A DNA stretch of 64,000 bases from Acidobacteriota bacterium. GTDB lineage: Bacteria; Acidobacteriota; Terriglobia; Bryobacterales; Bryobacteraceae. Shown here piece by piece: positions 2,701 through 32,068 of this stretch; the first letter of the stretch is position 1; every line of letters starts with the position of its first letter. A program made the translations under genes and the position numbers. The notes beneath the pieces were generated by a model. That model was not told the origin of the DNA. It did no database searches and was given only the letters and a program-made list of their open reading frames with translations. The stretch spans positions 1 to 64,000 of the forward strand of contig JACQZS010000135.1 in NCBI GenBank assembly GCA_016213725.1, written 5' to 3'.

Positions 2701-2710
2701 CTATAGCTAG
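2697..2710. repeat. Perfect 14-bp palindrome over two stop codons
   Basis: CTAGCTATAGCTAG is a perfect palindrome that contains the TAG stop of the interrupted plus-strand frame and the TAG stop of the minus-strand methyltransferase. It could be a junction or recombination site, or simply chance. Confidence 0.6.
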
Positions 2711-5943: not shown

Positions 5944-5957
5944 TGGGGCTCCTGTCG

Positions 5958-15562: not shown

Positions 15563-15984
15563 CGTTTCCTCCGGTAGTTCACAACTCCCCAGCACTGGCT
15601 TCGGGTGCGATGCTTGCCCTTGATGCTGACCTCTACATACTGCCAGTCCTTCTGGCCGCACTCTTGGACGTACCAAGTGATGAAGTGACGAAACAGCTCC
15701 GTGGCGCGCAACTCGCTGTCTTCAATCCCGTCAGCTTGATAAACCAGGACAACAGGTCCGTGCAGTATTTCGTCCTTCGTCAGTTGAGGCAGAAAACCCA
15801 CATCTCTCGTTATCAGCAACGCCTGACGACGAGAAGCTAAACGCCAAACAGCTTTATCAGCAATGCCACTTTCATGCTCGGCGATCCAATAGACTGAGTA
15901 CCCGAGTTGCTCGAGCGCGGTGACGATCTCCCGAGGTATGTTCTCGTCCGCGACAACTGATTTGGGCAGTGGCAAGGCTCTCAT
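15559..15984 (-). CDS. DUF5615 PIN-like toxin-type protein
   Basis: This 141-residue protein starts with a PIN-like acidic cluster (VVADENIPREIVTALEQLGY) and has LLITRDVGFLP, both typical of DUF5615 (Mut7-C/PIN-like) proteins. The family is usually encoded next to a DUF433 protein and thought to act as a toxin-like ribonuclease. Here the DUF433 domain is not a separate gene but the C-terminus of the upstream methyltransferase. The gene overlaps the methyltransferase stop and the helicase start by four bases on each side, so production should be tied to both. Confidence 0.82.
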   Translation of the reverse strand: MRALPLPKSVVADENIPREIVTALEQLGYSVYWIAEHESGIADKAVWRLASRRQALLITRDVGFLPQLTKDEILHGPVVLVYQADGIEDSELRATELFRHFITWYVQECGQKDWQYVEVSIKGKHRTRSQCWGVVNYRRKR

Positions 15985-18900
15985 TCTCCTGACAGTGAAC
16001 GGAGCGCAGCGGCCAGATGCATTTCACTCAACTGCGGGAAGGACGCCGCGATCTCAGCAAACGTATGTCTTCCCAGTAATGAGCGAGCCTGAGCCAATTC
16101 AATCCGCGTACCTCGCAGTGTCGGAGACCCGCTGCAGATCTCCGGATTCCGTACAATCCACTCCTGCCAGTCAGGCGGCAGGTCAGGGGGTTGGTATGGG
16201 CCGTTCGGATCCCACTTCTTCGCCTTGCTCGGGATGTAGGCGATGGCGCCGCGGCGGTGGTACTCGGCGACGCGGGCTTCCAGGTTCCGGATGGGGCCCA
16301 TGCGGTAGGGGCAGGATTCGTCGTCGACCATGTTCACCTGAACTTCGTCGCGATACCAGGCGGCCAGATCCTCGGGCGGGGCGATGCCGCGGTGGTGGAA
16401 GTAGGCCAGCAGCGCGGTGTCGCGAGTGACGTAGGAGCGCGGTTCCAGTTTCGGCTTGCCCTCCTTGTTCCAGCGGACGAACAAGTCGTCCGGCAGCGAC
16501 GGCTGATCGCGGTCGAGGAGCGGGAAGGTGGTCAGGATGTAGCCGAACTCGGAGGGCGAGAGGTCGTAGAGACCGGCGACGATGGTGTCGATCTCGGCGC
16601 GCAACCGGGCGCGCTCCCGGAGGTCGACGGCGGGCTCGGCCAATTGGATTTCGGGCGTGATGGAGACGAGGCGCGCTGCGCGCGCAAGTGCATCGCTGAA
16701 GCCCGCAGATTCCTGCGGTGGACGGAGCAGTGGCCACGACTCGACGTAAAACAGGTTCAGGTGCGTTGAGATTTTCTGGCGGATGAGAAAGTCGCCAACC
16801 AGCGAGTTGGCGAATGCCAGCCAGACCAGGTGGCAGTTCGTGCCCGAGGTCATCACCGTTGGCACGGAGTTCCCAGCAGCCATTCCACTGGGCAGCAAAG
16901 TCGCCAGCGCCGACCGTTCGTTGGTCTGGCCTGTCACATCACAGAACCCTGCCCGCTCTCCGACCGGGTAATCTACTTCGTTGATGTAGAAGTGCGGGAC
17001 GAGCGATTTCTCGTTGAGCGCAAGATCCCGCCATTTTGCGCCGCGACCCTCGCCGGCTTCGTACGCCTTTGCCGCGTGATCGAATTGATGGACCATGCGC
17101 CCTTCGTAGAGCGGGACGTAGCGGGCACCGGGAACGACTGGCATTTCGTGTTCGTCCGCCGCGCGCGACCGCCGCAGGAAACCGGCAACTGACTGAACCC
17201 GCTGCCCACGATTGCCTTTCTTCTTGTCTTCGTCAAGTGGTTTCACTGAGGTGATCCGGTATTTCGTACCCTCCGGCACGATGTAGCGGATACCCGGAAC
17301 ATACTCAGCCGAATCTCCATACGATTCCGATGGTGGAGCGACGAAGACACTGCCTTCAGAGCGACAGTCATATTCCAGAAGCCAATCGCGACGCCGGAAG
17401 CGCCACGCGTCGTCCGTCATGTTCAGTTCGCGGTGGAATTCGACGTTCCATGCCCCCGGCCCCTCGAGTTTCTTGGACAAGGGCGGCACGGACCGGTAAA
17501 CACGCTCAACGAGGCCGCGTTCCTTGTCGTCCCGGAGTTCGGTGATGGACTGGTACACAGGACTTGTGAGATTGATGAACTCGCTCGTGATCCGGACCGA
17601 GCGAGCCCGACGTTCTTGCTCCGACAGAGTCAGGAATCCCTCGTTTCGGAGCATGAATGCGGCTGGGAAAGACTGCTTCTGGGTGCGCCTCTTTTCGAAA
17701 ACCAAGGTCAGGAACTTGAAACTGGGATGGATCTGGAAGAACCGTTTCCCCCAGTTCTCGAATGAGTAAATTGATTCGACAAGAGCCTCCGCGAAAAGGA
17801 GTCGCCTCAAACCCGTGGCTCCCTCGAGTGAGTAGAGACCAGCGGGCATCAGGATGGCGACATGTCCGCCTTCCCGAGAGAGTCTGTGAAAACGCTCCAA
17901 GAACAGTTTGAATAGATCGGGCTTGCCGCCAGTCTTCTCACCATTGACTTCGACCACCTGGTGCAAATACGCGCCGCCGCCGATTAGCAACTTCGCGAGA
18001 CTCGCCTCCAGTCCGTTGTAGGTCTCCCACCGCTCATGAGCCGCCGATCCCGGCGGTGCAAGCTGCGCGATTCGCCGCGCGAGAGTCTGCCCCTGAAAAT
18101 CACGAATTGCCGGGTCGTATTGGGCGAAGAACTCCTTTCTCTTTGGTTCCAACTTGTCCCACGGCGGATTCCCCACCATCGCGTCGAAGCCGGGGCGCAC
18201 GCGCCGCCGAATGCCCTGTCCTTCCATTTCCGGCTCGAAGAACAGTTCCGGGAATGCCAGCTCCCAACAGAAGGCGCGGACCTCCTTCCCCTTCGCGATG
18301 GCAACCGCCGCAGAAGTGCGGGTCTCGGCACTGACGTGGTGCTGGTCTTGAATCTCCTGCATCCAGCGATTGGCTAGCATCGGATCAGCTCCTGGGTCGT
18401 TACCGTCGAGAAATGCTCGGCCGATTCGCAGGTGGTGCGCCTCCACAAACTCCGCCAGTTCCTGTTGCATGGTCAGCCAGGCTTGCTGCTGATCCTCGAA
18501 GTCGCCGGGCTGTTCGGTTTCGAGCCTTTCGATCTCGCGCAAGTGGCGGAAGGCCCGAAGGAGACGGGCGTTCAGTTCGTCGCGGCTGAAGTAAAGCCCC
18601 AACCCGCCCTGCGCAGTCTCGTCGCCGGTCAGCGCCTTCTTCACCTTCTTCTGGTAAAACGTGCGCAGCAGGTCCTCCACCGTGATGCCGAGGAGCGAAT
18701 CGCCCGACACCAGGCGGTGATTGAGGAAGGTCAGCGGGTGGTCGGACGCGGCGGTGGCGAGCCACAGCGAAACGCGCGCCAGTTCCACCGCGAGCGGGTT
18801 CTTGTCCACACCATACAGGCAGTGGAAAGCCGCCAGGCGGCGGCAGGCGGCCAATTCGGCTGGCTCGTTGCCCCACACCCTCGACACTTCGGCGTGTATG

Positions 18901-20771
18901 CCCGCATCCAGCAACAGTTCGTGCGGATATGCGTCGCGCCCGGCAGCTTCGGCGCGTGACTTCTCTTCGGCGTACCGCGCGCGGTAAGCGGAGAGCAGGT
19001 GTTCGGCCAAGCGGCGGCATGCGCCTACCAGAAAGTGCCCGGAACCCATGGCCGGGTCGCAGACCGAGAGCTTCAGTATCTCTTCGGGCCGCTTGTCTTC
19101 CGCCAGAGGATCGACCGCGCGGCGCACCAGATATTCGACGAAGGCGCGATTAGTGTAGTAGGAGCCGGACTGTTTGCGGCCGAGCCCGGGGCGCAGCACC
19201 ACCGAGCCCACCGGAATCGGATTCGGCGCCTCAGGCGTCGCCGGCAGGACCCGGATCGGTTTCTTCTTGCCGGTGGCGACGGGTTCGACATCGGCTTCCT
19301 CGGCAGCTTCGTCTGCGTCGTCCTCCGATGGCTCGGCCGAATCGTCGTCTTCTTCGTTCTCTTCGAGTTCGAGCGTGGCTCCGCCCGTTTCGCCGCGGCG
19401 CTTGCGCAGGTCGGCGAGTTGGGATGCGGTCACCAGGACCACGTCCCCATCAAGCCGGATGCGCCACAGCGGACCGCTCTGCTCGTCCACCGCGTCGACG
19501 GTCCGTTCGAGCAGACCTTCGTAGAGAGATCCGAGTTGTTCGACGTCGAGTTCGCGGTAGGACAGCGTGACCTTGCCGCGCTTGGTCTGGACGTGGGTGA
19601 GCGCCTCCAGGACGTGGGCGACCGTGCGGTCGCCGAGACGCAAGTCGTCCAGTTCCGGATATTGGCAATCCGGATCACGATGCGGGTGGAAAAGGCCGCC
19701 GCCATAGGCGGGGATACGGCCTTCCGGACCGAGGTCTGCGCCGTCGCGTAGGAGGCGGAAGAGCGCGCGGAGGCTCAGTTCGTAGAAACCGCCGGCGGCC
19801 TCGGCGTTGACACGCGGGTCCGTGGCACGGTCCATCACGCGGCGGACCAGGCCGCGCGCGCCGGAGAGCGCGTATCCATCACGGTATGCCGGCATGTCGA
19901 GTGGCAGCAGGCCACGGGCCTCGGCGTAGAGGACGAACAGAATTCGGTAAAGGTACTGCAGCGCGCCCGCATGCAGGTGTTCCAGCAGCGCGCGGCGGCG
20001 CGAGGGATCTTCGAGGAACGGGGCGAGCGCTTCGTGGTTGGCGGGATGCGAGAGGGCTCCTTCGAGCAGGCGCTCCACGGCGGCGGGAACCTGCGAGCCG
20101 AGATTGTCGCCGACTTCCTGCTGGTGCTCGCGTCCTAGTCGGACCACCTCATCGAGCAGCGCAGGCGCGGAGGACCAGGCTTCGGCGCGCAGCAATCCCC
20201 AGATCAGGTTCCAGGCGTCGCGTGCGCCGGGGACGTCTCCCGCCAGGTCCAGCAGACTGAAAGCGAGGTGCGAGGAGACGAAACCTTCGCTGCGCCGGAC
20301 CAGGCGCAGTTCGTAGGCGTTCAGGAGAATGCCCCAGGTGAGACCTTCCTGTTCGAGGACGCGAACCAGGCTATGGGCGGGCGCGAACCGGCGATGCAGG
20401 CCTTCGGGCGGCAGGTCGAGAGAGGATTCGGCGGGCACAGACAGAACCCGGGCAACGATGTTCTTCCCGTCGTCGACCGAAAGCGTCTGACTGCCGTCCT
20501 CTTCGCCGAGACTGGTCGCTACGACCGACGGCTCGCCTAGTTCCCAGTTGAGAAGCCGAGCCAGCGGGTCCAGAAGAACGCGGCGGGTGACCCGGGCCTG
20601 GCGGCTGCCCCGCATTTCCCGGTGGGCGCCGCGCAAGGCGCTGCTAAATTCGCGCCAGGATCGGTCTGCGCCCGACGAATCCAGACGAGGTAGGAGCTTA
20701 CTGTCCGAAGGGAGGATGCGCCGGAGGAAATACTCACTGAAGGCGTCGCCTTGAACCTGAAAGGCCTCCAT
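15981..20771 (-). CDS. Eco57I-type adenine methylase with DUF433 tail
   Basis: A 1596-residue PglX/DrmMI-like N6-adenine methyltransferase. Motif I is CDPAMGSGHFLVG (Asp572) and catalytic motif IV is VGNPPWDKLEP (Asn868). A long helical N-terminus and target-recognition regions flank the core, and an acidic low-complexity stretch lies near residues 455-500. The last ~60 residues, starting WIVRNPEICSGSPTLRGTRI and ending LAAALRSLSGE, match DUF433, normally a stand-alone antitoxin-like partner of DUF5615. I see no stop or frameshift between the parts, so this is a true fusion in the given sequence. Only three bases separate it from the helicase gene upstream. Its role is presumably to mark host DNA. 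Confidence 0.88.
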   Translation of the reverse strand: MEAFQVQGDAFSEYFLRRILPSDSKLLPRLDSSGADRSWREFSSALRGAHREMRGSRQARVTRRVLLDPLARLLNWELGEPSVVATSLGEEDGSQTLSVDDGKNIVARVLSVPAESSLDLPPEGLHRRFAPAHSLVRVLEQEGLTWGILLNAYELRLVRRSEGFVSSHLAFSLLDLAGDVPGARDAWNLIWGLLRAEAWSSAPALLDEVVRLGREHQQEVGDNLGSQVPAAVERLLEGALSHPANHEALAPFLEDPSRRRALLEHLHAGALQYLYRILFVLYAEARGLLPLDMPAYRDGYALSGARGLVRRVMDRATDPRVNAEAAGGFYELSLRALFRLLRDGADLGPEGRIPAYGGGLFHPHRDPDCQYPELDDLRLGDRTVAHVLEALTHVQTKRGKVTLSYRELDVEQLGSLYEGLLERTVDAVDEQSGPLWRIRLDGDVVLVTASQLADLRKRRGETGGATLELEENEEDDDSAEPSEDDADEAAEEADVEPVATGKKKPIRVLPATPEAPNPIPVGSVVLRPGLGRKQSGSYYTNRAFVEYLVRRAVDPLAEDKRPEEILKLSVCDPAMGSGHFLVGACRRLAEHLLSAYRARYAEEKSRAEAAGRDAYPHELLLDAGIHAEVSRVWGNEPAELAACRRLAAFHCLYGVDKNPLAVELARVSLWLATAASDHPLTFLNHRLVSGDSLLGITVEDLLRTFYQKKVKKALTGDETAQGGLGLYFSRDELNARLLRAFRHLREIERLETEQPGDFEDQQQAWLTMQQELAEFVEAHHLRIGRAFLDGNDPGADPMLANRWMQEIQDQHHVSAETRTSAAVAIAKGKEVRAFCWELAFPELFFEPEMEGQGIRRRVRPGFDAMVGNPPWDKLEPKRKEFFAQYDPAIRDFQGQTLARRIAQLAPPGSAAHERWETYNGLEASLAKLLIGGGAYLHQVVEVNGEKTGGKPDLFKLFLERFHRLSREGGHVAILMPAGLYSLEGATGLRRLLFAEALVESIYSFENWGKRFFQIHPSFKFLTLVFEKRRTQKQSFPAAFMLRNEGFLTLSEQERRARSVRITSEFINLTSPVYQSITELRDDKERGLVERVYRSVPPLSKKLEGPGAWNVEFHRELNMTDDAWRFRRRDWLLEYDCRSEGSVFVAPPSESYGDSAEYVPGIRYIVPEGTKYRITSVKPLDEDKKKGNRGQRVQSVAGFLRRSRAADEHEMPVVPGARYVPLYEGRMVHQFDHAAKAYEAGEGRGAKWRDLALNEKSLVPHFYINEVDYPVGERAGFCDVTGQTNERSALATLLPSGMAAGNSVPTVMTSGTNCHLVWLAFANSLVGDFLIRQKISTHLNLFYVESWPLLRPPQESAGFSDALARAARLVSITPEIQLAEPAVDLRERARLRAEIDTIVAGLYDLSPSEFGYILTTFPLLDRDQPSLPDDLFVRWNKEGKPKLEPRSYVTRDTALLAYFHHRGIAPPEDLAAWYRDEVQVNMVDDESCPYRMGPIRNLEARVAEYHRRGAIAYIPSKAKKWDPNGPYQPPDLPPDWQEWIVRNPEICSGSPTLRGTRIELAQARSLLGRHTFAEIAASFPQLSEMHLAAALRSLSGE

Positions 20772-20774
20772 GGG

Positions 20775-23753
20775 CTATCGCACCTCCTCAAGGATCGCGG
20801 CGGGAACTCGGAGTAACACTCCAAGCGGCTCCAGCGTGGGCTCGCCGAAGCTCATGCGGCGATCCAGAAGCGAGCGTTGAAACTCAGCGCGCTTGCGGTG
20901 GTCCTCCAGGCGTCTGTGAATGGAGGGCGGCATGACAGGCTGGCCGCCAAAAAGACGCCCTTGTTCAAGTTGGCGTTCGTAGTCGCCAAGGATCGCCTTC
21001 TTGGTGGCGTCGTCCCAGCGATCGATTTCCGCCTTTCGAAACTCCCGTTCCAATCCTCGAAAGGCGATCAACGACTCCCTCCAATCGGCCACTCTCCGCC
21101 GCGCCTCGTCCTCGGCAAGGCGACGGGCTTCCAGCCACCAGCCGCTGAAAAGGCGATCGAGGAGTTCGACGGGCACGTTGCCTGGGTGCGACTCCCGTGT
21201 GGCGGCATCATCGGCGGAGACGTCGCGAGAGACTACGAGCGTTGCCGACACCCGCACTGCCTCAAAGCGCTGAACCTGCGCACCCGTGCCGTCCTGCAGA
21301 GTCGCAAGGCAGGTAGCGATCAACTCGGGACCCGTCAAGTCCGGCGTGGCCACACAGGCCAGGCGGTGGTCATCGTCAGAACGGAATCGTGTTGCCCGAA
21401 CCCACCGGAGCGCTGCCTGAAAGAGTGGATGTTCTTCGTGCAACACTTCCTCGGGCGCAACCTCCTCCTCGCCTTGCCGGTAAGAGCCCGGGGGCAACAG
21501 CCGCTCATAAGTCGACTCGACTTCGTGGGAGCGCCATACAGGCGGTGTTACGACGCGTAGCGCGGAGCCGTTTCGTTGCACTGTGCCGCCGGCCGCTGTG
21601 ACGGCCCGCTGAAGGAAGACATCGAGCGCAACCCCTCGCTCCCTCTCGACGCGAACCGCGGCCTCGGCCCGATCCAACTCATCCTGGACGTCACCGCCTT
21701 CGCCGATCTGACGGCGGACGCGGGGATCTGCGGCGCGATTCAACTCATCGTCGATCTGCGCCTCCGCTTCTGCAATGGCCCGATGCAGGTCCGAAACAGG
21801 ACGGCTGAGTAGCTGCTCAATGCGCTCCGCCTGGATTTGTCCGAGTACGTCACCAACTGAACCCAGCTTTCTAAGTTGGGCCTCAATCTTCTGGACAAGC
21901 CTTTTGAGCACCTCGCCTTCATAGGAGTCCTCCGCATAGAGAAAGGCGATGACAGGAGCCTTGGTTTGGCCGTAGCGATCGATGCGGCCGTTGCGCTGCT
22001 CGAGGCGGTTTGGATTCCACGGAAGTTCGAAGTGGACCAGTTGGTGGCAGTGTTCGTGGAGGTTGAGACCTTCGCCCGCAACGTCGGTCGCCACGAGAAT
22101 CACAGCGTCTGGGGACGCAAACCGTGCCAGTGCTGCGCGTCGATCTTTGCGACTTGTGATGTCACCGGTCATTCTGACGATTTTCCCGGCATATCCAGCC
22201 TGCTCCAGGTGCTCGACAATGACGTCGACAGTGTCCGCGTACTCGCTGAAGACGATCACTTTGTTGGAGGCGTCCGTTGCGTGGAGCGCTTTGAGGTACT
22301 TCTCCAATTCAACAAGCTTGGATTCGGGCCCAATGCCGCAGGCATCCACCAGAGCTTCCAACTGCCCGATTCGATCCTCCTCTTCCTTGAGCCGGCGCAG
22401 CTCGCGACCGGTGCGTTGCATGGCCGACAGATAGCTGCGGTAGAGGTCGCGCTCCAGGCGGACCTGCGCTTCCTCCGGGATCGGTTCGCCCTTCTTCCAT
22501 GCCCGCAGGTGTTCGCGCCGGATCTCGATCTCAGCCAGAGTTTGGGCTAAGTTCTCCTTCCGCTGGAGAATCGTCTTGTGCAAGGCCGCCAAGGACGAGG
22601 CCGCCCGCTTGCGAAGAACCGTGGCAACGAGCCGGATCGATTCCCTGTCGGCTCGCAGAGCCTTCTCGGCCAGTTCGTCTAGAGAGGCTGCTTCATCCTG
22701 GACCGCCTGCTGCACCTTGAGCTCGGCCGCCGTGAAGGGAACTGGGACCGGCTGGACAGGTTGGCGTTCCACAAACTTCGGCTGACCATTGGGAAGCCGG
22801 ATGTGGCGCTTGAGCCGCCGGACCATGTGCTGGCGGTATTGCTCGAAACGCAGTTCCCGCCCGGGGATGACGAGGGAGGGCTCCAGCAGGGACAGGAGCG
22901 AAGAGAAATTCTCGTCGTAACCGTCATGCGGCGTGGCGGTGAGAAGCAGCAGCGCCCCCGTGTTTTCCGCCGCCAGCCATCGGGCAAGGCGATAGCGGTC
23001 GGTGAGGTCGTCGTCGCCACCGCCCGAAGCCAGATGATGCGCCTCGTCAATGATGATGACGTCCCATCGGCTGGCTGAAAGCTCCCGAAAGGCTCCTTCG
23101 CGCCGTTTGATGAAATCAATGGAGGCGATCACTCTCGGTTCGGCGCACCAGGGATTCGTACCGGCCTCGTACGCGCGCCGCGCCTCCGCAACTCCCTCAC
23201 TGTCGAAGATCTTGAACTGAAAACCAAACTTCGAGGCGAGCTCGGCCTGCCATTGCTCAACAATCGAAGCCGGGCTCACAATCAAGACGCGGGAGGCGCG
23301 CCGCCGTGCGTTCAATTCACGCAGGATCAAACCCGCTTCGATCGTCTTGCCCAATCCAACATCGTCAGCTACGAGGAGGCGGGGCCTCGGCAACTCCAGC
23401 GCCCGCAGTGCAGGCACCTGTTGATAAGGCTCGAACTCAATCCTCGATCGTGCAGAAGAAACCAGGCGGTCGTCGCCGGGAGCAAGCCCCAGGCGTATGG
23501 CGTCCATGAGAAGTTGGAAGCGCGCCAATCGCCCCGGGTGCGCCAAGTCCAGCTCGGGAATCTGGTCCGGCTGAACTGGCTCCAGCGGGTGGAGGACACA
23601 GATCTCGTCGTTTCGGAAGGGTTCCTCCAGCGCACGAAGCCGCAGGCGGTGAATTGTCTGTCCAGAATTCTGAGCGATCGGGTCGGCAGCGACTACCGTG
23701 TAGCGGTTGCCCCGGGCGAGGACCGTCGAACCCACTTGAAATTCCGTCTGCAT
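20775..23753 (-). CDS. SNF2-like helicase, DrmD-like
   Basis: A 992-residue SF2 ATPase of the RapA/SNF2 kind. Walker A is VADDVGLGKTIEAG (Lys136) and DEAH is IIIDEAHHL (236-239). The C-terminal helicase half has VIVFSEYADT, ATDVAGEGLNLH and RNGRIDRYGQ. A coiled-coil-like insert lies between the two lobes, and a long C-terminal extension has no motif I can name. Size and order (SNF2 helicase then giant adenine methylase) match DrmD-DrmMI of class 1 DISARM. It starts three bases after the regulator gene and is probably co-transcribed with it. It would act as a DNA translocase in recognising or blocking foreign DNA. Confidence 0.87.
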   Translation of the reverse strand: MQTEFQVGSTVLARGNRYTVVAADPIAQNSGQTIHRLRLRALEEPFRNDEICVLHPLEPVQPDQIPELDLAHPGRLARFQLLMDAIRLGLAPGDDRLVSSARSRIEFEPYQQVPALRALELPRPRLLVADDVGLGKTIEAGLILRELNARRRASRVLIVSPASIVEQWQAELASKFGFQFKIFDSEGVAEARRAYEAGTNPWCAEPRVIASIDFIKRREGAFRELSASRWDVIIIDEAHHLASGGGDDDLTDRYRLARWLAAENTGALLLLTATPHDGYDENFSSLLSLLEPSLVIPGRELRFEQYRQHMVRRLKRHIRLPNGQPKFVERQPVQPVPVPFTAAELKVQQAVQDEAASLDELAEKALRADRESIRLVATVLRKRAASSLAALHKTILQRKENLAQTLAEIEIRREHLRAWKKGEPIPEEAQVRLERDLYRSYLSAMQRTGRELRRLKEEEDRIGQLEALVDACGIGPESKLVELEKYLKALHATDASNKVIVFSEYADTVDVIVEHLEQAGYAGKIVRMTGDITSRKDRRAALARFASPDAVILVATDVAGEGLNLHEHCHQLVHFELPWNPNRLEQRNGRIDRYGQTKAPVIAFLYAEDSYEGEVLKRLVQKIEAQLRKLGSVGDVLGQIQAERIEQLLSRPVSDLHRAIAEAEAQIDDELNRAADPRVRRQIGEGGDVQDELDRAEAAVRVERERGVALDVFLQRAVTAAGGTVQRNGSALRVVTPPVWRSHEVESTYERLLPPGSYRQGEEEVAPEEVLHEEHPLFQAALRWVRATRFRSDDDHRLACVATPDLTGPELIATCLATLQDGTGAQVQRFEAVRVSATLVVSRDVSADDAATRESHPGNVPVELLDRLFSGWWLEARRLAEDEARRRVADWRESLIAFRGLEREFRKAEIDRWDDATKKAILGDYERQLEQGRLFGGQPVMPPSIHRRLEDHRKRAEFQRSLLDRRMSFGEPTLEPLGVLLRVPAAILEEVR

Positions 23754-23756
23754 AGG

Positions 23757-24995
23757 TTAATGTCTATCCCCCGTGAGCCCAGCCCGGTGAAGCAATTCAT
23801 TCATCTCGTCCGTTTGGACAGACAGCAGACTGGCGACTTCCATGAGTTTGGCGCGGGTAATCAGTTCGCGGCGGTATGCCTCCAGCGACAAGCCGAGAAC
23901 GCGATGCCGGAATCCATCCGCATCGTCGCTGCTGTCGGCGTCAGGCAGGTTTAGCAGGCGCCCCAATTCGAGCCCGGAACCAGCTTCGTCTGCTGACTTC
24001 AACTCATCCAGCTCCGCCTGTGTCAGCAGCTTGAGATTGCGAAGTCGAAAGAGCGCCGCCAGGCGGCTGACGCCGAAGTAATGTGCGAGGTGCACAACGT
24101 CATAGAGCTGAATGTCCTGGCTACCGGGTGCCGCGCGCCCCTCCGCCTGGACCGCCCCGGCTTCGTCGAACACCTGGGCAATCGCCCTGCTGGGCTGACC
24201 TTTGCCGAGGGCTGCGACGAACTGCCGGATCCCCTCAGGGGGCATGAGGAACGCGGCGGCGAAGGCATTCGCCCTGACTTCAATCAGGTCGTCACGCTCC
24301 GAGGAACGGGTAACGATGCCCTTCATGCGGCGGTCGAAAAGCACGTGCGCATACTCGTGCGCGAAGGAAAAACGGCGGCGCGCCGCGGCATGCGCCCGAT
24401 TCGCCACGATGAACAACCCAACGCTCTGGTTGCTGATGGTGATTCCCGAGATCTCCTCGGGAAGATCCACAATTCCAGTGCGAACTCCCTGGGTCTCCAG
24501 AAGCTCGGGCAGCGGCGGAGACGGCGCCCATCCCAGGCCTAGGCGCCGGCGTTCTTGCTCTGCTGCGCGCTCGCCCTGCTGGATCGCCTCCCATCGCGAA
24601 CGAGGTGCGGCTATCTGGTAGCTCACTGCACCCGCGAGGTCCCGATCGATGCCGAGCAAACCCTCGAGGTTGGTGACCTCGCGCCCCAGTGCAATGCACG
24701 CCCGCAGGCTGTCGGCAACGTCTTCGTGATTGGCGATTTCCGGCTCAGCGCGGAAGAGGACAGCGAGGGCGTCCTCCTCTTCGAAGGTATCGGCGACGAA
24801 CTCCCGGATGTCCCGCCCGAACAAGTAGGCGAGCTTGTCCAGTTCGATGGTGGTCACCGCCCGATTGCCCAGCTCCATCTGTGCCACAGTCGGCCGAGAA
24901 ACACCAAGTCGGCGTGCCACATCCTCCTGCGTCATCCCGCAGGCCTCGCGCGCCGTCCGTAGTCTCCGTCCCATTTCCTGAGCACTCACGGCCAT
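23757..24995 (-). CDS. XRE regulator with ImmA/IrrE peptidase
   Basis: This 412-residue protein has an N-terminal XRE-type helix-turn-helix (about 10-60, GMTQEDVARRLGVSRPTVAQ) and a zinc-metallopeptidase centre FAHEYAHVLF (His213, Glu214, His217). In ImmR/ImmA-type switches the repressor and the protease that inactivates it are separate; in this single-chain family both sit in one protein. It is the first gene of the 22-kb minus-strand operon and is divergent from the plus-strand element module. The intergenic region has a perfect inverted repeat overlapping both promoters, so this protein probably represses both directions. Confidence 0.9.
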   Translation of the reverse strand: MAVSAQEMGRRLRTAREACGMTQEDVARRLGVSRPTVAQMELGNRAVTTIELDKLAYLFGRDIREFVADTFEEEDALAVLFRAEPEIANHEDVADSLRACIALGREVTNLEGLLGIDRDLAGAVSYQIAAPRSRWEAIQQGERAAEQERRRLGLGWAPSPPLPELLETQGVRTGIVDLPEEISGITISNQSVGLFIVANRAHAAARRRFSFAHEYAHVLFDRRMKGIVTRSSERDDLIEVRANAFAAAFLMPPEGIRQFVAALGKGQPSRAIAQVFDEAGAVQAEGRAAPGSQDIQLYDVVHLAHYFGVSRLAALFRLRNLKLLTQAELDELKSADEAGSGLELGRLLNLPDADSSDDADGFRHRVLGLSLEAYRRELITRAKLMEVASLLSVQTDEMNELLHRAGLTGDRH

Positions 24996-25032
24996 GGAAT
25001 GGTCCTTTCTGCCTGTTTCATCAATCAGATGC

Positions 25033-25061
25033 AGGTTATCACCCTTTACATGGATTGTAAA
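25033..25061 (-). promoter_or_regulatory. Predicted promoter of defence operon
   Basis: On the minus strand TTTACA (25061-25056) is followed after 17 bases by TAACCT (25038-25033), a fair -35/-10 pair about 40 bases before the regulator ATG at 24995. Prediction by eye. Confidence 0.5.
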
Positions 25062-25062
25062 G
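25044..25062. promoter_or_regulatory. Candidate operator, inverted repeat
   Basis: CTTTACA-tggat-TGTAAAG is a perfect 7-bp inverted repeat with a 5-bp spacer between divergent genes. It covers the predicted -35 boxes of both promoters. Size and position suit a dimeric XRE repressor such as the product of 23757-24995. Confidence 0.65.
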
Positions 25063-25084
25063 ATACGGATCCGAGTGTTATGAT
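25055..25084 (+). promoter_or_regulatory. Predicted promoter of plus-strand module
   Basis: TTGTAA (25055-25060), 18 bases, then TATGAT (25079-25084), about 48 bases before the ATG at 25132. The -35 lies inside the inverted repeat. Prediction by eye. Confidence 0.5.
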
Positions 25085-25131
25085 TTGGTTTCCGCGTTGG
25101 CGGAACACAACCATCGATTCAGGGGTAGATC

Positions 25132-26325
25132 ATGCGGATGGAATTCACACCGCGCCACTTCCTTCGCCTTGTGTCGTCGCCGTTGTTGCGCGCGTACTTC
25201 GAGCAGCGTCGCCTGCTCGCTGATTTTGACTGGAACGGCCTGGGCGACGAGATGGAGCCCTTGTACGACGCCTGGATGGCACTCCCAGGCAAAGAGGGAC
25301 ACGCCTGCTGGGTGGACTTCGAGACGGCGTTCGGGCTTTTTTCGCGGCGCGGCATCCAGACCGTTCTGGATTCGGCTGGGAGTACCGCCGAGCGTGAGAA
25401 GGTGCTCTCAACGATGGGCAAAGGCAGCACGGCGGACAAAGTCTTTCGTGTGCTGCTCGATCATCCGGACGTATTCGCCGTGGCCCGACGGTTCGCCTGG
25501 GCGGACGGTCTCAAGCGGCATTGGCAACCCCGACAAGACCTGCCCGCGTCGGATCCCCAAATTGACGAGACGTCGCTGGCAGAGTTCAAGGAGGCCGTGG
25601 CAGCACGGTACCGTAGGCTGGACGGGCGTGGCGAGTACAGCACGGGCAGAGCGCATTGGCGTGGCGAGGCTCTGTACATCATGATCTACATCTCGGACCA
25701 CCCCGAAGCGGTGGAGGAGTTCGAAAACTCGGACGACCTAAAGCGGCAGACGCGCCAGCGCGCATTCGATGTCGTGTACCGGTACGAGCCCGCGAGCGGG
25801 GCCTTCGAGATGTACGCTGAGGGGGACAAGGAGTTCCGCCGGAGTCTGGCCCAGGATTTCGTCGATCGTGTTCTAAAACAACAAGTGAGCTTGCCGGTCG
25901 ACGAGGTACTCTCATTCGACATCGAGAAGTTCAAGGATCCGAACTTCCGTTTCGCCACCGATAGCATGGATGGAGTCAGGTCCATGGAACTCTGCGCCAT
26001 GCGGTTGGCGGCCGCAGGCGCCAATGGCGGGCGGATCACATTTGGAGCGCAGCCGCGCATCTCGAAGCCGCAACTGCACGACTTCATCAAGAGAGGTCTG
26101 AACGAGACCCACTTGCCGCTGAAGCAGCTGACAGTCGAGCATGTGACCATCAAGGCCCAGGTGGCCAACGGCAGCCGGCGGCCTGCCAGTGTCACCTTCA
26201 ACATCAGCGCCAGCAATACGTGCAATTTGAAGGACACGACGGAGCACAACAAGATCCGCACGTGCCTGAAACGGTCGGGAGTGATCCGTGGACAGTCCGC
26301 TGACGCAGCTTCTCAATCGAGCTGA
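25132..26325 (+). CDS. Unknown protein, first gene of element module
   Basis: A 397-residue soluble protein that I cannot assign. The N-terminal ~150 residues are helical and charged, and the middle has regular charged/aromatic alternation (HWRGEALYIMIYISD, VVYRYEPASGAFEMYAEGDK). There is no transmembrane segment or P-loop, and no nuclease motif I recognise. The C-terminus (FNISASNTCNLKDTTEHNK) is polar. It is the first gene after the shared operator and overlaps the next gene by 38 bases, so it is probably the regulated leading gene of the module. A short GGGG precedes the ATG; a second ATG lies two codons later. Confidence 0.75.
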   Translation: MRMEFTPRHFLRLVSSPLLRAYFEQRRLLADFDWNGLGDEMEPLYDAWMALPGKEGHACWVDFETAFGLFSRRGIQTVLDSAGSTAEREKVLSTMGKGSTADKVFRVLLDHPDVFAVARRFAWADGLKRHWQPRQDLPASDPQIDETSLAEFKEAVAARYRRLDGRGEYSTGRAHWRGEALYIMIYISDHPEAVEEFENSDDLKRQTRQRAFDVVYRYEPASGAFEMYAEGDKEFRRSLAQDFVDRVLKQQVSLPVDEVLSFDIEKFKDPNFRFATDSMDGVRSMELCAMRLAAAGANGGRITFGAQPRISKPQLHDFIKRGLNETHLPLKQLTVEHVTIKAQVANGSRRPASVTFNISASNTCNLKDTTEHNKIRTCLKRSGVIRGQSADAASQSS

Positions 26326-27154
26326 TCTCACAGGACATGTCATCGGCTACGACGAGACGCGCCGATGGCCGGCCCAGGACCGCGATGCAATTCTACGTCT
26401 CGGCATCTTGCGGAAAGCTGCCGATGCGGAGTACGCCACCTGCGAGATCTGCGCGGACGGGGAGCCCTGCGATCTAATCCTGGACATCGGCCCTGACCCA
26501 CGCATCCACTGCCCACAACATGGCCTGGTGCGCATCGCGTGGGAGCGGCTCCAGCAGTGGGAGTTGGATTTCCAGAAGCTCGGCTTGTTTTTGATCGGGC
26601 AGCTTGGGCTGACCGGCGGGATGAACACTATTCCGCCGGGCCGGATCTGGCAACTTGGTCGCCGACAAGTGAGCGGCCGCACGGCGGAGTTCTTTCTGGT
26701 ACAGGGAATCGCCTGGCCGGATTCGCTTGACGTTCTGCGAGCGGCACCGAAGCTGGCGGGCTCGCCAGCGCCAATTATCGTGTGCCCGGATCAGCTGCCT
26801 CTGGAAGCCATGTGGCGGGAATCCGGCCGCGCATTTCTCCGGCTCACCGAATGGGCGCGCATCCACGACGGTCACCTCGTGGTCGACTTCGAGGCCTACG
26901 CCGACCTCTATCGCCAGACTGCCGAGGCTTTCGAGAAGCCTCTCACACCGACGCCGCCTGAAAGACGAGAGCGTCTCATTGAGGAGTTCTGTAAGACGCA
27001 CGGGTGCAAGGTCAAGCAGGTCTACACGTGGGCAGCCGTTGACCGGGGCGATCTGAACCGCTGGAAGAACGGCGACCCCACAATCCCAGACGGCGGCGAG
27101 CCCGCGATGCGAATCGAGCGCCTCCTTCAGTTGGACCAGCGGTCCAGGGCCTGA
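26288..27154 (+). CDS. Unknown protein with Cys/His cluster
   Basis: A 288-residue protein starting at GTG within the tail of the preceding gene. Residues about 50-80 carry CEICADGEPC followed by HCPQHG, which could bind zinc. Residues ~235-275 (EEFCKTHGCKVKQVYTWAAVDRGDLNRWKNG) look like a small helix-turn-helix with an adapter-like spacing. I know no family for it. The overlap with 25132-26325 suggests the two work together. The start is supported by a purine-rich stretch upstream rather than by homology. Confidence 0.72.
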   Translation: MDSPLTQLLNRADLTGHVIGYDETRRWPAQDRDAILRLGILRKAADAEYATCEICADGEPCDLILDIGPDPRIHCPQHGLVRIAWERLQQWELDFQKLGLFLIGQLGLTGGMNTIPPGRIWQLGRRQVSGRTAEFFLVQGIAWPDSLDVLRAAPKLAGSPAPIIVCPDQLPLEAMWRESGRAFLRLTEWARIHDGHLVVDFEAYADLYRQTAEAFEKPLTPTPPERRERLIEEFCKTHGCKVKQVYTWAAVDRGDLNRWKNGDPTIPDGGEPAMRIERLLQLDQRSRA

Positions 27155-27226: not shown

Positions 27227-27484
27227 GTGGAACCGAATCGAACAAGCGCGGAGAGCCGAGAAACAGGCGAGCCGACCATTCAAACACTGCTGGACGAGCG
27301 GGATGTGGCGCGGTGGATTCGCGTCTCCGTGGCCACGCTCCGGTACTGGCGCGGCGAAGGGAAAGGCCCCCGCTACCGCAAGGTCGGGCAACTGGTCCGC
27401 TATGCCCCATCGGACGTCCAGGACTGGCTGAACACCCGTCCCGCCGGCGGCGAGGGCGTGAGCGAGGAGGCTTCCCGTGCCTGA
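27227..27484 (+). CDS. Excisionase-like HTH protein
   Basis: An 85-residue protein with a MerR/AlpA-like winged helix: LLDERDVARWIRVSVATLRYWRGEG followed by PRYRKVGQLVRYAPSDVQDWL. This is the standard helix_turn_helix_17/AlpA pattern of excisionases and small phage regulators. It starts at GTG 27227 and overlaps the helicase gene by eight bases. In an integrative element it would aid excision or regulate the genes that follow. The integrase itself is 9 kb downstream. Confidence 0.8.
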   Translation: MEPNRTSAESRETGEPTIQTLLDERDVARWIRVSVATLRYWRGEGKGPRYRKVGQLVRYAPSDVQDWLNTRPAGGEGVSEEASRA

Positions 27485-29141
27485 AGCCGCCTTCGCCGAT
27501 GTCGATGCCGGCCGCATTCTGCTGCGGGCCCCGTTCTCAAACTTGCTCATCTGCAAGCGGGTACCGGGCGCATCCTGGGACACCGCACGGCGCGTTTGGA
27601 CCTATCCCGCGACGCCGCAACACGCGCGCCTGATCCGATCCTCGATTCCGCGGCTTCAGGCCAGCTACAAATTCGCCGCACTTCTGGCCCCCAAGCCGGC
27701 GGCTGAAGCCCAGGTGCAACCGGCGCCGGCGCCGCCGACCCAGCCGGGGCCCACAATAGAACTCCCCGCCGGACTCAAAACCACGCCCTGGCGACACCAG
27801 ATCGATGCGTTTCGATTCGCCATGGAACGCCTGCTCCGTGGTGGCGGCGCCGCGCTTCTCGCCCTCGAGATGGGCGTCGGCAAGACGCTCGTCGCACTGA
27901 TGGTGCTGGCCGCGATAGCCGCCCGACGTATCCTCATCTGCTGCCCATTGCGCGTTGTGCCAGTTTGGGAGCAGCAGATCGAGCGCCACCTGGACCTCGC
28001 GCTGATCGTCGTGACCCTGGACGACAGCGCGGGCAGCGTCGCCAACAAGAAGAGACTCGCCGAGGAGAAACTCCGGCTCGCCGAGGCCACCGGGCGGCCG
28101 CTCGCCCTCATCATCAACTACGATTCTGTCTGGCGCGCGCCCTTTGCGGAGTGGGCTGAGCACCAGCAGTGGGACCTCATTATCGCCGACGAGTCGCACC
28201 GCCTGAAAGCACCTGGCGGCAAAGCCAGCCTGGCGTTCAAACGTCTGCGCTCCCGGGCCCGCGCGCGCCTGGCGCTCACCGGCACGCCGCTCCCGCACAG
28301 TCCGCTTGACGCCTATGCCCAGTTCCGCTTCCTGAACCACACCGTCTTCGGACCCTCCTTCGCCGCATTCCGGCAGAAGTACGCCGTCATGGGAGGATTC
28401 CAGCGCAAGCAGGTCACCGGTTTCCAGCAACTCGATGAACTCGAGGCGCTCATGAAGACCATCACCTTCCGCGTCTCGAAGGACGTCCTCGACCTGCCGC
28501 CTGAAACGCACGTGACCTATGAGTGCGAACTCTCCCCGGAAGCGCTCCGCGTTTATCGGGACCTCGAGCAGGACTTCGTCGCCGAGGTCCGTGATGGCCG
28601 GGTGACCGCCGCAAACGCCATGGTGAAGCTGCTGCGGTTGCAGCAGGTGGCCGGCGGCTGGGTGAAGACCGACGATGGCCAGTACCATCGCGTCGATTCA
28701 GCGAAGCAGAACCTTCTCGCGGACACGCTCGAAGACATCGGCCTCAACGAGCCGGTGGTCGTCTTCTGCAGATTCCACGCTGATCTGGATGCGGTTCATG
28801 AAGCCGCGAAGACCGCCGGGTTCGAGAGCCTGGAACTCTCCGGACGTCGCGACGAGCTGAAGCGCTGGCAGGACGGCGATGCCCAGGTGCTGGCGGTGCA
28901 GATCAGCGCCGGCGGCGTCGGCGTGGACCTCACCCGCGCCCGTTATTCCATCTACTTCTCGCTCAGCTTCTCGTTGGGCGAATACGACCAAGCCTTGAGC
29001 CGGGTTCACCGTCCCGGCCAAACGCGCCCCGTGGAGCACATCCACCTGGTGGCACGGAACACGGTGGATCGCAAGATCATGCGCGCACTCGAAAAGCGCG
29101 CCGAAGTCGTCGAGGCTATTTTGGCCGAGATCAAAGCCTAA
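27477..29141 (+). CDS. SNF2/SMARCAL1-like helicase
   Basis: A 554-residue SF2 ATPase typical of phages and integrative elements. The first ~60 residues (LLICKRVPGASWDTARRVW) resemble the small HARP-like cap found before the core in SMARCAL1-type proteins. Walker A is ALEMGVGKTLVAL (Lys136) and the DEAH-box equivalent is IIADESHRL (238-241). The C-terminal lobe has QISAGGVGVDLTRA and RVHRPGQTRPVEH. It may anneal or remodel DNA during replication or repair of the element. The start is a GTG overlapping the previous gene. A proline-rich linker (about 70-95) joins cap and core. Confidence 0.88.
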   Translation: MPEAAFADVDAGRILLRAPFSNLLICKRVPGASWDTARRVWTYPATPQHARLIRSSIPRLQASYKFAALLAPKPAAEAQVQPAPAPPTQPGPTIELPAGLKTTPWRHQIDAFRFAMERLLRGGGAALLALEMGVGKTLVALMVLAAIAARRILICCPLRVVPVWEQQIERHLDLALIVVTLDDSAGSVANKKRLAEEKLRLAEATGRPLALIINYDSVWRAPFAEWAEHQQWDLIIADESHRLKAPGGKASLAFKRLRSRARARLALTGTPLPHSPLDAYAQFRFLNHTVFGPSFAAFRQKYAVMGGFQRKQVTGFQQLDELEALMKTITFRVSKDVLDLPPETHVTYECELSPEALRVYRDLEQDFVAEVRDGRVTAANAMVKLLRLQQVAGGWVKTDDGQYHRVDSAKQNLLADTLEDIGLNEPVVVFCRFHADLDAVHEAAKTAGFESLELSGRRDELKRWQDGDAQVLAVQISAGGVGVDLTRARYSIYFSLSFSLGEYDQALSRVHRPGQTRPVEHIHLVARNTVDRKIMRALEKRAEVVEAILAEIKA

Positions 29142-29161
29142 CCGGAGAAAGGACGCTCGCA

Positions 29162-29605
29162 ATGAACATCGAGCAGTTGAAGGAGTTCGTGTGCCTGGAG
29201 ACGCGCAAACGCGAACTCGACTCGGAACTCAAAGCAATCGCAGCGCGGATTGACGACCTGGAGCAGGCCCTCGTGCCGCAGTTCTTGGCCGACGGCGTGG
29301 CCTCGATGAAGGTCGACGGCCGGACGGTCTACATCGCGCAGGACATCCACGCCAGCCCGGTGAACGACCGCGCGGAGGTCATCTCGGCACTGAAGACCTC
29401 CGAACTCGGCCAATACGTGTCGGAGAACTACAACACGCAGTCGCTCCGCGCATTCGTGCGCGAGGTCGCCGATGAGGCGCGCCTGCGCTGCCAGCAGCAG
29501 AACCGGCTCTTCACGGAAGAAGAAGTCCGCACCGCATTGCCGTCGCCGCTCTGCGACGCACTCAAGGTTTCGTTCGTTCATTCCCTGCGCAGCAGGAAAG
29601 CCTGA
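29162..29605 (+). CDS. Phage-type Gp33-like small protein
   Basis: This 147-residue acidic protein opens with a coiled coil (residues 1-45, LKEFVCLETRKRELDSELKAI) followed by VASMKVDGRTVYIAQDIHASP. This arrangement is common in small phage proteins sometimes labelled Gp33. Function unknown; its position between a helicase and an SSB-like gene suggests a replication or recombination accessory role. A GGAGAAAGGA-type ribosome site precedes the ATG. Confidence 0.7.
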   Translation: MNIEQLKEFVCLETRKRELDSELKAIAARIDDLEQALVPQFLADGVASMKVDGRTVYIAQDIHASPVNDRAEVISALKTSELGQYVSENYNTQSLRAFVREVADEARLRCQQQNRLFTEEEVRTALPSPLCDALKVSFVHSLRSRKA

Positions 29606-29622
29606 CAAGGAGAAAACACAGA

Positions 29623-30366
29623 ATGTCCACCGAACTGATTCAGATCCAGACGCCCCGCGCTCTTTCTGCACTCGAAAGCAGCCTGGACGCCATCAACGAG
29701 GCCATCGCCACCAACATCAGTGGCGGCGGCATCACGGACTTCGACCTGCCCCGCGTGAAGATCTCGGGCGGCGCCAGCCCGCGCTGGATCGTCCCCACGC
29801 TCGAGGGCGAAGAGACACTGGCGCGCATCGACGGCGTCATCGTCTACGCGCGCGATACCCGGGTTTACTACAAAACCGCCTTCGGCAAGGGCAGCGGCAA
29901 GCAGCCGCCGGATTGCTCGTCGTCCGACGGCATCACCGGCAAGGGCAAGCCGGGCGGTGATTGCTCGCGGTGTCCGCTGGCTGAATACGGCAGTGCGGAA
30001 GAAGGCGCCGGCCAGGCCTGCAAGCAGGTGAAGCAGATCTTTGTGCTGCGCGGCGATCTGCTGTTGCCCGAGGTCGTGTCGCTGCCGCCCACCAGCCTCA
30101 AGGGCGCGCGGCAATTCTTCCTGAAGCTGACCACGCAGGGCATCCCGTACTACCAGGCCGTGATCGGCATGGAACTCGAAAAGGCACAGAACGCCGCCGG
30201 CATCCAGTACGGCAAGGCGCTGCTCAAGTTCGTGCGCCGCCTCACGCCGGAGGAAGCGGCACGCGCGCAACAGTACCACCAGCTTTGCCGGACACTCGCC
30301 GAGCGCGTGCCCACCGGCCTCGATCCCGAAGTGCGCGACCAGGGCGGAGACCAGGGGCCGTTCTAA
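29623..30366 (+). CDS. Phage SSB-like protein, inferred
   Basis: A 247-residue protein. A central cysteine cluster (PPDCSSSDG, then GGDCSRCPLAEYGS, then QACKQ) is followed by LPPTSLKGARQFFLKL, a pattern I associate with phage/plasmid proteins proposed to bind single-stranded DNA. The tail VRDQGGDQGPF ends in Pro-Phe after a mildly acidic stretch, like the protein-binding tip of SSB. The SSB assignment is inference; the cysteines might bind zinc. A GGAGAAAA ribosome site is present. It would fit with the neighbouring helicases, primase and nuclease. Confidence 0.6.
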   Translation: MSTELIQIQTPRALSALESSLDAINEAIATNISGGGITDFDLPRVKISGGASPRWIVPTLEGEETLARIDGVIVYARDTRVYYKTAFGKGSGKQPPDCSSSDGITGKGKPGGDCSRCPLAEYGSAEEGAGQACKQVKQIFVLRGDLLLPEVVSLPPTSLKGARQFFLKLTTQGIPYYQAVIGMELEKAQNAAGIQYGKALLKFVRRLTPEEAARAQQYHQLCRTLAERVPTGLDPEVRDQGGDQGPF

Positions 30367-30378
30367 GCGGAGGACGCC

Positions 30379-30600
30379 ATGTACCTCGCCACAATCCTGG
30401 TCATCGCGCTTTCGCTCTGGTTCGTGCACTGGCTGACGGACTCCGAGCGCCGCCCCCTCACCCTCTCCGCGGCCCGCCTGCTTCGGCGTGCGGGCCGCTG
30501 GCTCTGGGCCACCGGCGAAGCAGTGGAGGTCGGCTACTTCCACAAACGCCAGGTGCGCGACAGCATTCAGCTCGAACTCGAAGCGGGAAAACGGCCATGA
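30379..30600 (+). CDS. Small membrane-anchored protein
   Basis: This 73-residue protein has one N-terminal hydrophobic helix (YLATILVIALSLWFVHWL), then a basic cytoplasmic-type tail (RRAGRWLWATGEAV). Function unknown. GGAGGA precedes the ATG and the stop overlaps the next start (ATGA), so it is probably translated as part of the module. Confidence 0.65.
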   Translation: MYLATILVIALSLWFVHWLTDSERRPLTLSAARLLRRAGRWLWATGEAVEVGYFHKRQVRDSIQLELEAGKRP

Positions 30601-30908
30601 ACGATGCGCAACTGACGGACGAACTCGCCAGCCGGGTGATGGGTTGGAAGGTGGCCTCCGGCCGCTTCGTCAAGCCGAGCCGCAGTTGGATCCCCAAGTG
30701 GCGGTTCGCCCCGCTGGAACGCTTGGAGGATGCCTTCCTTCTCCTGGACACGGCGCGCGCGGCATACACTCTGTCGCGCAGCGCCGCCGGCGCCTTCACG
30801 GTTTCGGTCCGGATCAACCAGGGGCGCGGCGAGGCCTCCGGTGAGCCGAAGCCCCGGACGATCACGATCGCACTCGCGGAGGCTGCCGGAATCGAGGTGG
30901 GTCGATGA
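30597..30908 (+). CDS. Small phage ABA-sandwich-type protein
   Basis: A 103-residue protein. The track ORF starts at 30285, but the ATGA overlap at 30597 is a much better start and gives MNDAQLTDELASRVMGWKVA. The pattern of an N-terminal helix, SWIPKWRFAPLERLEDAFLLL and a short strand region is typical of small phage 'ABA sandwich' proteins. Function unknown. It ends four bases into the nuclease gene. Confidence 0.65.
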   Translation: MNDAQLTDELASRVMGWKVASGRFVKPSRSWIPKWRFAPLERLEDAFLLLDTARAAYTLSRSAAGAFTVSVRINQGRGEASGEPKPRTITIALAEAAGIEVGR

Positions 30909-31213
30909 GCCGTCACAATGATCCCCGCGAGTCCACATTGGTCCGGCAGATCGTGGCCGCCCTTCGGGCCATGCCCGGCGTCGTTGTGCGTAAGCGCCAC
31001 GGCAGCAGTTGGTCGGTGGCCGGCGACCCGGATCTCTACGGCTCCTACCGGGGACGGCATTTCGAGATCGAAGTGAAGCGCCGTGACGGCGAAGTCACCG
31101 ACCTGCAGCGGGCGCGCCTTCGCGATTGGGAACGGTCTGGCGCACGGGCGGGTGTGGCTCGCAGCGTCCCGGAGGCGCTCGCAGTGGTTGGCATTCCGGA
31201 GGCAACACACTGA
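30905..31213 (+). CDS. VRR-NUC-type nuclease
   Basis: A 102-residue single-domain PD-(D/E)XK protein of the VRR-NUC family. Catalytic signature: AGDPDLYG followed by HFEIEVKRRDGEVTDLQ, so Asp, Glu and Lys are in the expected order. Stand-alone VRR-NUC proteins are common in phages and are thought to process branched DNA such as Holliday junctions. It overlaps both neighbours by ATGA or a single base. It probably resolves replication or recombination intermediates of the element. Confidence 0.85.
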   Translation: MSRHNDPRESTLVRQIVAALRAMPGVVVRKRHGSSWSVAGDPDLYGSYRGRHFEIEVKRRDGEVTDLQRARLRDWERSGARAGVARSVPEALAVVGIPEATH

Positions 31214-31692
31214 TGGCAGCGCCCTCGTACAGCCTCGATGCCTGGCGGCGTTTCCGCGAGCAAAAGGGGAGGCCGGAAACGCCCGCGAGTTCTTCGCCGG
31301 GAATCACTCTGGCGGACATCCCCGCCGACGCGGAAATGGATGACGGCATCGTCATCGGCTTCTGGAACGGCGAGCGGTTCGTGTCGTGGGAGAAGTGGCT
31401 CGCGACGGCGCCGATCACGGTGGATCCGGCGCCGGCGTCCCCGGCACTGCCCGAGGCCTCTGCATACCGTGCAACCTGCGGCAGCACTCCGGTGTGGCTG
31501 CGGAAGGATGGGGACCGCTGGCTGATGTTTGCCGGAACGCAGAAGAGCCGCCGGAGGGATTTCGCCTCGCCGTTTCTGGAACACGCGATCCGCACCGCGG
31601 AGGACTGGTACGGTCCAGCGGCCGACGGCTGGCACGCGGTCGAACGGGCGGTTGCACGGAAGGAGGAGGCACATGCCGATCCGGCCCAGTGA
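31213..31692 (+). CDS. Unknown element protein
   Basis: A 159-residue protein whose ATG shares its first base with the upstream stop. The track ORF begins earlier (31126) inside the nuclease gene. Features visible: acidic N-terminus, GFWNGERFVSWEKWL, and a middle FAGTQKSRRRDF region. I do not recognise a family. The HNH gene begins inside its 3' end. Confidence 0.6.
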   Translation: MAAPSYSLDAWRRFREQKGRPETPASSSPGITLADIPADAEMDDGIVIGFWNGERFVSWEKWLATAPITVDPAPASPALPEASAYRATCGSTPVWLRKDGDRWLMFAGTQKSRRRDFASPFLEHAIRTAEDWYGPAADGWHAVERAVARKEEAHADPAQ

Positions 31693-32068
31693 ACGCCACC
31701 GCTATCCGAAGGACTGGAAGTCAATCCGCCAGCGGATCCTCGAGCGCGCCGGACATCGGTGTGAGTTCTGCGGCGTCGAGAACGGGGCCATCGGCCGCCG
31801 GAAGCGCGACGGTAGCTTCGAACTCTTCCAGGGCATGGAAGTCGAGACGGCGGCGCTCGACGGCATCCGCCTCACGCGCATCGTCCTGACGATTGCCCAT
31901 CTCGACCACACGCCAGAGAACAATGCCAACGACAACTTGCGGGCCCTGTGCCAGCGCTGCCACCTGGCGCACGACGCCGCCGAGCACCAGCGAAACGCGC
32001 GGGATACCAGACACCGCAAGCTCGACGCGACCCGACCCCTGTTGGCCGGCCTGGAGACCACTCGATGA
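31673..32068 (+). CDS. HNH endonuclease
   Basis: This 131-residue protein starts at 31673 behind a perfect AAGGAGGAGG site. Zinc-type HNH motif: CEFCGVENG, then TIAHLDHTPENNANDNLRAL and CQRCHLAHD. The HLDH, N and H residues form the beta-beta-alpha-metal site. Small HNH enzymes like this in phages nick DNA near packaging sites or act as homing enzymes. No terminase lies nearby, so its role here is open. Confidence 0.85.
   Translation: MPIRPSERHRYPKDWKSIRQRILERAGHRCEFCGVENGAIGRRKRDGSFELFQGMEVETAALDGIRLTRIVLTIAHLDHTPENNANDNLRALCQRCHLAHDAAEHQRNARDTRHRKLDATRPLLAGLETTR

Follow-up and report, generated by a model that had tools for sequence, protein, structure and literature searches.

A conserved divergent control region between a DISARM-like operon headed by an XRE-M78 regulator and the genes of a phage-like integrative element

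The window, a 64,000-nucleotide stretch of an Acidobacteriota contig, contains at 25.0 kb a 136-bp intergenic region from which two groups of genes diverge. To its left the gene REG starts at position 24995 on the minus strand (23757-24995), and to its right orf397 starts at 25132 on the plus strand (25132-26325). Domain matches identify the REG product as a fusion of an XRE HTH with an M78 (ImmA/IrrE) domain. Its HExxH motif (residues 213-217) and E239 are invariant in 30 relatives, and its AlphaFold model (pLDDT 85.6) has CapP as best fold match and IrrE as the next, so the M78 fold and active site are intact. The likeness of its HTH to ImmR is at the superfamily level only. These domains agree with the initial annotation, which had described a single-chain XRE repressor and ImmA/IrrE protease encoded next to a palindrome.

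REG heads a ten-gene operon, all on the minus strand, whose genes are a few bases apart or overlap. It is followed by genes for a DrmD-like SNF2 helicase (20775-23753; 502 bits, under the NCBIfam cut-off of 610), a DrmMI-like methyltransferase with a C-terminal DUF433 (15981-20771), a DUF5615 protein (15559-15984), which we take to be of a PIN-like toxin type, and a DruE-like helicase with an MZB domain and a weak C-terminal nuclease-domain match (10454-15571). Beyond these lie a second M78-domain protein in which no HTH was found (9531-10439), an NTPase-TPR protein, STAND-like by inspection (7243-9753), a gene pair (3808-7100) made up of a HerA-like ATPase (3808-5943) and a protein with no family matches that is NurA-like by inspection (5958-7100), and, as the last gene, a small methyltransferase with a weak match (2707-3807). 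The predicted products are those of a DISARM/Druantia-like operon, as the annotated defence operon next to the regulator would have it, with DrmD-, DrmMI- and DruE-like genes behind REG. It differs from DISARM and Druantia in having a DruE-type helicase in place of separate DrmA and DrmB and in an inserted DUF433/DUF5615 pair, and from DISARM in that no DrmC was found among the proteins scanned. Within 15559-20771, the pair seems to be a toxin-antitoxin-like insertion with the antitoxin fused to the methyltransferase, since at a related locus, L081, the methyltransferase ends without DUF433 and the helicase is directly next to it.

On the other side, orf397 is the first gene of the element (PHROG 37634) and is followed on the plus strand by its conserved partner orf288 (26288-27154), by phage-like replication genes encoding an HTH_17 protein, an SNF2 helicase, VRR-NUC-like and HNH nucleases, a primase-like protein and an SF1 helicase (27227-35485), and by a tyrosine integrase (36382-37755). 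The replication module predicted on this side thus takes the form of phage-like integrative-element genes. The structure model of orf397 (pLDDT 48) was too poor for use, and searches with orf397 in viral contigs and plasmids gave no match. Its relatives head many elements within this bacterial family whose cargo differs, being by inspection, for example, type I restriction-like (L186), SbcCD-like (L183) or Cas9-like (L033). In L033 (2955-9805) the orf397 relative is divergent to the Cas9-like gene, and a Cas1-like gene, a CRISPR-like array and, elsewhere on the contig, an integrase fragment could be recognized by inspection.

The intergenic region carries a predicted promoter in each direction. 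The promoter scan placed that of orf397 at 25055-25084 on the plus strand (TTGTAA at 25055-25060, an 18-bp spacer, TATGAT at 25079-25084, with an extended -10 TG). The REG promoter, read from the sequence at 25033-25061 on the minus strand, has TTTACA (25061-25056) and TAACCT (25038-25033) separated by 17 bp with a TGn extended -10, a layout that agrees with the TTGACA-17-TAACnT promoters of REG relatives. Between the two genes, at 25044-25062, lies CTTTACA-TGGAT-TGTAAAG (CTTTACATGGATTGTAAAG as read there), a 19-bp palindrome and candidate operator that forms a perfect inverted repeat with 7-bp arms (25044-25050 and 25056-25062) and a 5-nt spacer. The palindrome had been annotated at this place and as overlapping the -35 boxes of both directions, which is true for the TTGTAA/TTTACA pair: both boxes are on its right arm. 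The scan also gave an alternative REG promoter on the minus strand (ATAACA-16-TACAAT, 25054-25081), whose -10 falls within the palindrome. A second inverted repeat, TTGGTTTCCGC-GTTG-GCGGAACACAA (25085-25110, plus strand), is near the orf397 transcript start; it could be an mRNA hairpin or another operator. An Rfam search gave no match.

A sister element, L080, from a Bryobacterales MAG, has the same divergent layout. Its proteins are 88% (REG), 93% (orf397), 89% (orf288) and 95% (SNF2) identical to those of the window. The palindrome arms are conserved at 14 of 14 positions and both -10 regions are kept, that of orf397 reading TAAGAT, while the REG hexamers are identical to the window's and the alternative REG promoter has TTAACA. 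The second inverted repeat is mostly retained. The cargo of L080 is BREX (BrxA, B, C, PglX, PglZ, BrxL), not DISARM-like, together with a UvrD-like helicase, a DarT-like protein and a protein that by inspection is ADP-ribosylglycohydrolase-like. BREX and the last two kinds of gene are found behind the same regulator type both in L080 (4205-15425) and on contig C152 of genome G297. The converse case is L081, which has DISARM-like cargo (DrmD 85% identical), a REG of 76% identity and no adjoining orf397. REG thus tracks the chassis and not the cargo, the BREX-linked REG of L080 being closer to that of the window than the REG of L081. DNA identity between the window and L080, about 91% over the chassis and control region, falls to about 79% where REG begins, and the fraction of identical fourfold sites is 76% in orf397 vs. 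38% in REG. These comparisons indicate that the element is a mosaic with its junction at the control region. The two divergent promoters of the initial annotation share one control region, and its conservation, as judged from the two elements, is well supported, as is its retention while the defence cargo was exchanged.

Symmetry alone is modest evidence that the palindrome is an operator, since 7.8% of dinucleotide shuffles of the intergenic region contained a perfect inverted repeat (arms of at least 7, spacer of at most 10). Conservation of the arms between the window and L080 is likewise weak support (P about 0.09 relative to the local rate; P 0.18 for the longest conserved run), since the palindrome is known from just two junctions, with intergenic regions that share 86% identity overall. 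A DNA search for the junction in 237 genomes of the bacterial family gave only the copy in the L080 genome, three short matches being chance. The exact palindrome has one copy in the source genome and one in the L080 genome, both at the REG-orf397 junction; there was no second copy within the window or the 6.05-Mb genome, none in five further genomes searched, and no match for the extended palindrome in viral contigs. It was absent beside the orf397 relatives examined, which makes it a feature specific to the REG-orf397 junction. Three wider roles were rejected: a host regulon site, given the lone genomic copy; an element-wide operator, as orf397 relatives without REG have none; and a copy of the identical palindrome at every REG relative, the exact form being confined to the window and L080.

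Scanning 85,000 genomes turned up 78 loci with REG relatives, most of which have a PIN-like PDC-S70 protein directly 3′ of the regulator. A plasmid search found relatives of about 41% identity with a small protein downstream, and the PIN-like PDC-S70 partner was also present in 3 of the 3 plasmid records inspected. Viral contigs gave only distant HTH/M78 matches to REG and a search of phages no match. Fusions of XRE with COG2856 (M78) that accompany PIN toxins were described in 2009 (Makarova, PMC2701414), and RosmerTA is an XRE-M78 fusion with a PIN partner (PMC10440598). As most relatives of REG are paired with a PIN-like protein in the same way, REG is a recruit from this known two-gene family and not a novel protein type; the earlier proposal that the regulator combines both functions in one protein is correct, but such a single-chain fusion is not new. 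REG shares the fused HTH-M78 architecture of these pairs, RosmerTA included, but there the toxin gene adjoins, whereas in the window the PIN partner has been lost, the DrmD-like gene starts 3 bp after REG, and REG heads a DISARM-like operon. On one further contig (L195, 6878-19106), a REG relative (57%) and its PIN-like partner lie about 8 kb from an orf397 relative, which hints that the two modules have come into contact more than once.

The REG relatives have an operator motif of their own. Palindrome-constrained EM on about 57 of their upstream regions, with the window and L080 excluded, yielded GTTnGAAnTTCnAAC with a log-likelihood of 133, vs. 29-34 in shuffles. The motif is located 6 bp past the -35 box, in the -35/-10 spacer, in about 10 relatives and 41 bp upstream of this usual place in about 10 others, a few having both; intact sites score 10-20 bits in about 26 relatives. 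The upstream sites (e.g. in L100, L099 and L107) give a two-site spacing of about four helical turns, which suggests cooperative binding or looping. A conserved palindromic motif embedded in the promoters of REG relatives implies autoregulation, and autoregulation of REG is probable on these grounds.

No intact family operator is present at the REG promoter of the window, where the two usual positions score 0.9 and 1.1 bits, and L080 scores about 1 bit or less at both. The first of these, on the minus strand at the usual place (25035-25049), appears to be a degenerate remnant, GTAAAGGGTGATAAC vs. GTTnGAAnTTCnAAC (P 0.013 in shuffles); the second (25077-25091, minus strand), over the orf397 -10, is an uncertain match. 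Conversely, CTTTACA-N5-TGTAAAG is absent upstream of the approximately 57 other REG relatives, all of which have at least 3 mismatches. Conservation of the repeat at orthologous regulators, anticipated by the initial annotation, thus fails at the family level: only L080, the closest orthologue, has it, and a search of the other orthologues reveals a different operator, degenerate at this locus.

Our best explanation, which we hold tentatively and at a little less than even confidence, is that of a phage-like integrative element with changeable defence cargo, in which REG represses itself, likely with an effect that reaches orf397, and is released through M78 cleavage. REG would most likely repress its own promoter. 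Its binding would probably affect orf397 too, since the two promoters interlock within about 50 bp surrounding a single palindrome. A stress signal would then lead the M78 domain to cleave an XRE domain, releasing repression. We infer binding of REG at this site, its two-sided effect, and the cleavage with its signal; a single shared switch for the defence operon and the element genes is plausible, and the palindrome is a possible REG operator here. The shared operator and the DNA-damage switch of the initial annotation thus stand as hypotheses. Against this explanation, the family operator is degenerate here despite a nearly unchanged recognition helix (SRPTVAQ) relative to the relatives that retain it, and the CTTTACA half-site is unlike GTTnGA in orientation and spacing.

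Chance, or operator rebuilding, is accordingly a serious rival to REG binding at the palindrome. When aligned on the -35 box, the window reads TTTACA-atcca-TGTAAAGGGTGATAAC and L105 reads TTGACA-gtaac-AGTTTGAAATGCTAAC, so that the palindrome is in exact register with the TTGACA-N5-xGTTnGAAnTTCnAAC of the relatives. It appears to be a rebuild specific to this lineage, in which the -35 box is combined with the left arm, now decayed, of the ancestral operator. The palindrome could then be incidental, the REG -35 box (CTTTACA) and the decayed arm (TGTnnnG) being complementary by accident, and REG would use the weak remnants at 25035-25049 and perhaps 25077-25091, or would have lost autoregulation. 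The exact register, the remnants themselves, the frequency of such repeats in shuffles and the near-palindromes that L092 and L124 have in the corresponding position favour this alternative. It accounts less well for the fact that both arms have changed vs. the relatives (TTGACA to TTTACA, TGTTnGA to TGTAAAG) in such a way as to make the symmetry perfect, and that perfect symmetry is kept in both elements. We consider it possible, if rather unlikely.

It is less probable still that another regulator, the orf288 or HTH_17 protein of the element or one from the host, binds the palindrome while REG acts elsewhere. In line with this alternative, the palindrome falls on the chassis rather than the REG side of the place where DNA identity drops, and the REG family uses another motif, but L183 has no palindrome in spite of an SNF2 chassis gene that is 94% identical, and the second genomic copy that a host regulon would need is lacking. 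Least probable is that REG is mainly an antitoxin-like sensor of the RosmerTA or XRE-M78/PIN type, carried along at the head of the operon with the orf397 promoter independent of it: the partner gene of most relatives and a PADLOC label of RmrA-like agree with this, but REG has no PIN partner here and is followed by DrmD, and by other genes in L080.

Several known systems resemble our preferred explanation, that of an autorepressing REG released by cleavage, in part. In CapH/CapP of CBASS, ssDNA-stimulated cleavage gives release (summarised in PMC10233336). REG likewise combines XRE and M78 modules in a defence operon, but CapH and CapP are two separate proteins and REG a single chain. We know of no element promoter that shares the CapH/CapP operator. 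ImmR/ImmA of ICEBs1 and TnSmu1 (PMC10233336) control an integrative element with an XRE and an M78 protein; REG has both, with HExxH and the third ligand intact, but ImmR and ImmA are separate proteins controlling element genes. The WYL regulators BrxR/CapW (PMC9122589, PMC9122601) are encoded with the defence locus they control, and RptR (PMC12255303) controls its defence locus at its own promoter. They belong to other protein families than REG, a single type of regulator placed here between different defence cargo and the promoter of an element.

A further possibility, which we put forward as doubtful, is that the control region is a fixed regulatory socket, in which a regulator derived from a toxin-antitoxin-like XRE-M78/PIN module faces the element's own promoter across a rebuilt shared operator and DISARM-like or BREX cargo recombines in behind it. 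If true, any inserted defence would share its stress switch with the replication genes of the element. The regulation of defence cargo by mobile elements is little known, and DISARM-like vs. BREX cargo behind the same control region offers a ready comparison of one element-borne regulator over unrelated defences and mobility. For the family as a whole, the operator motif provides a testable binding site for XRE-M78/PIN modules.
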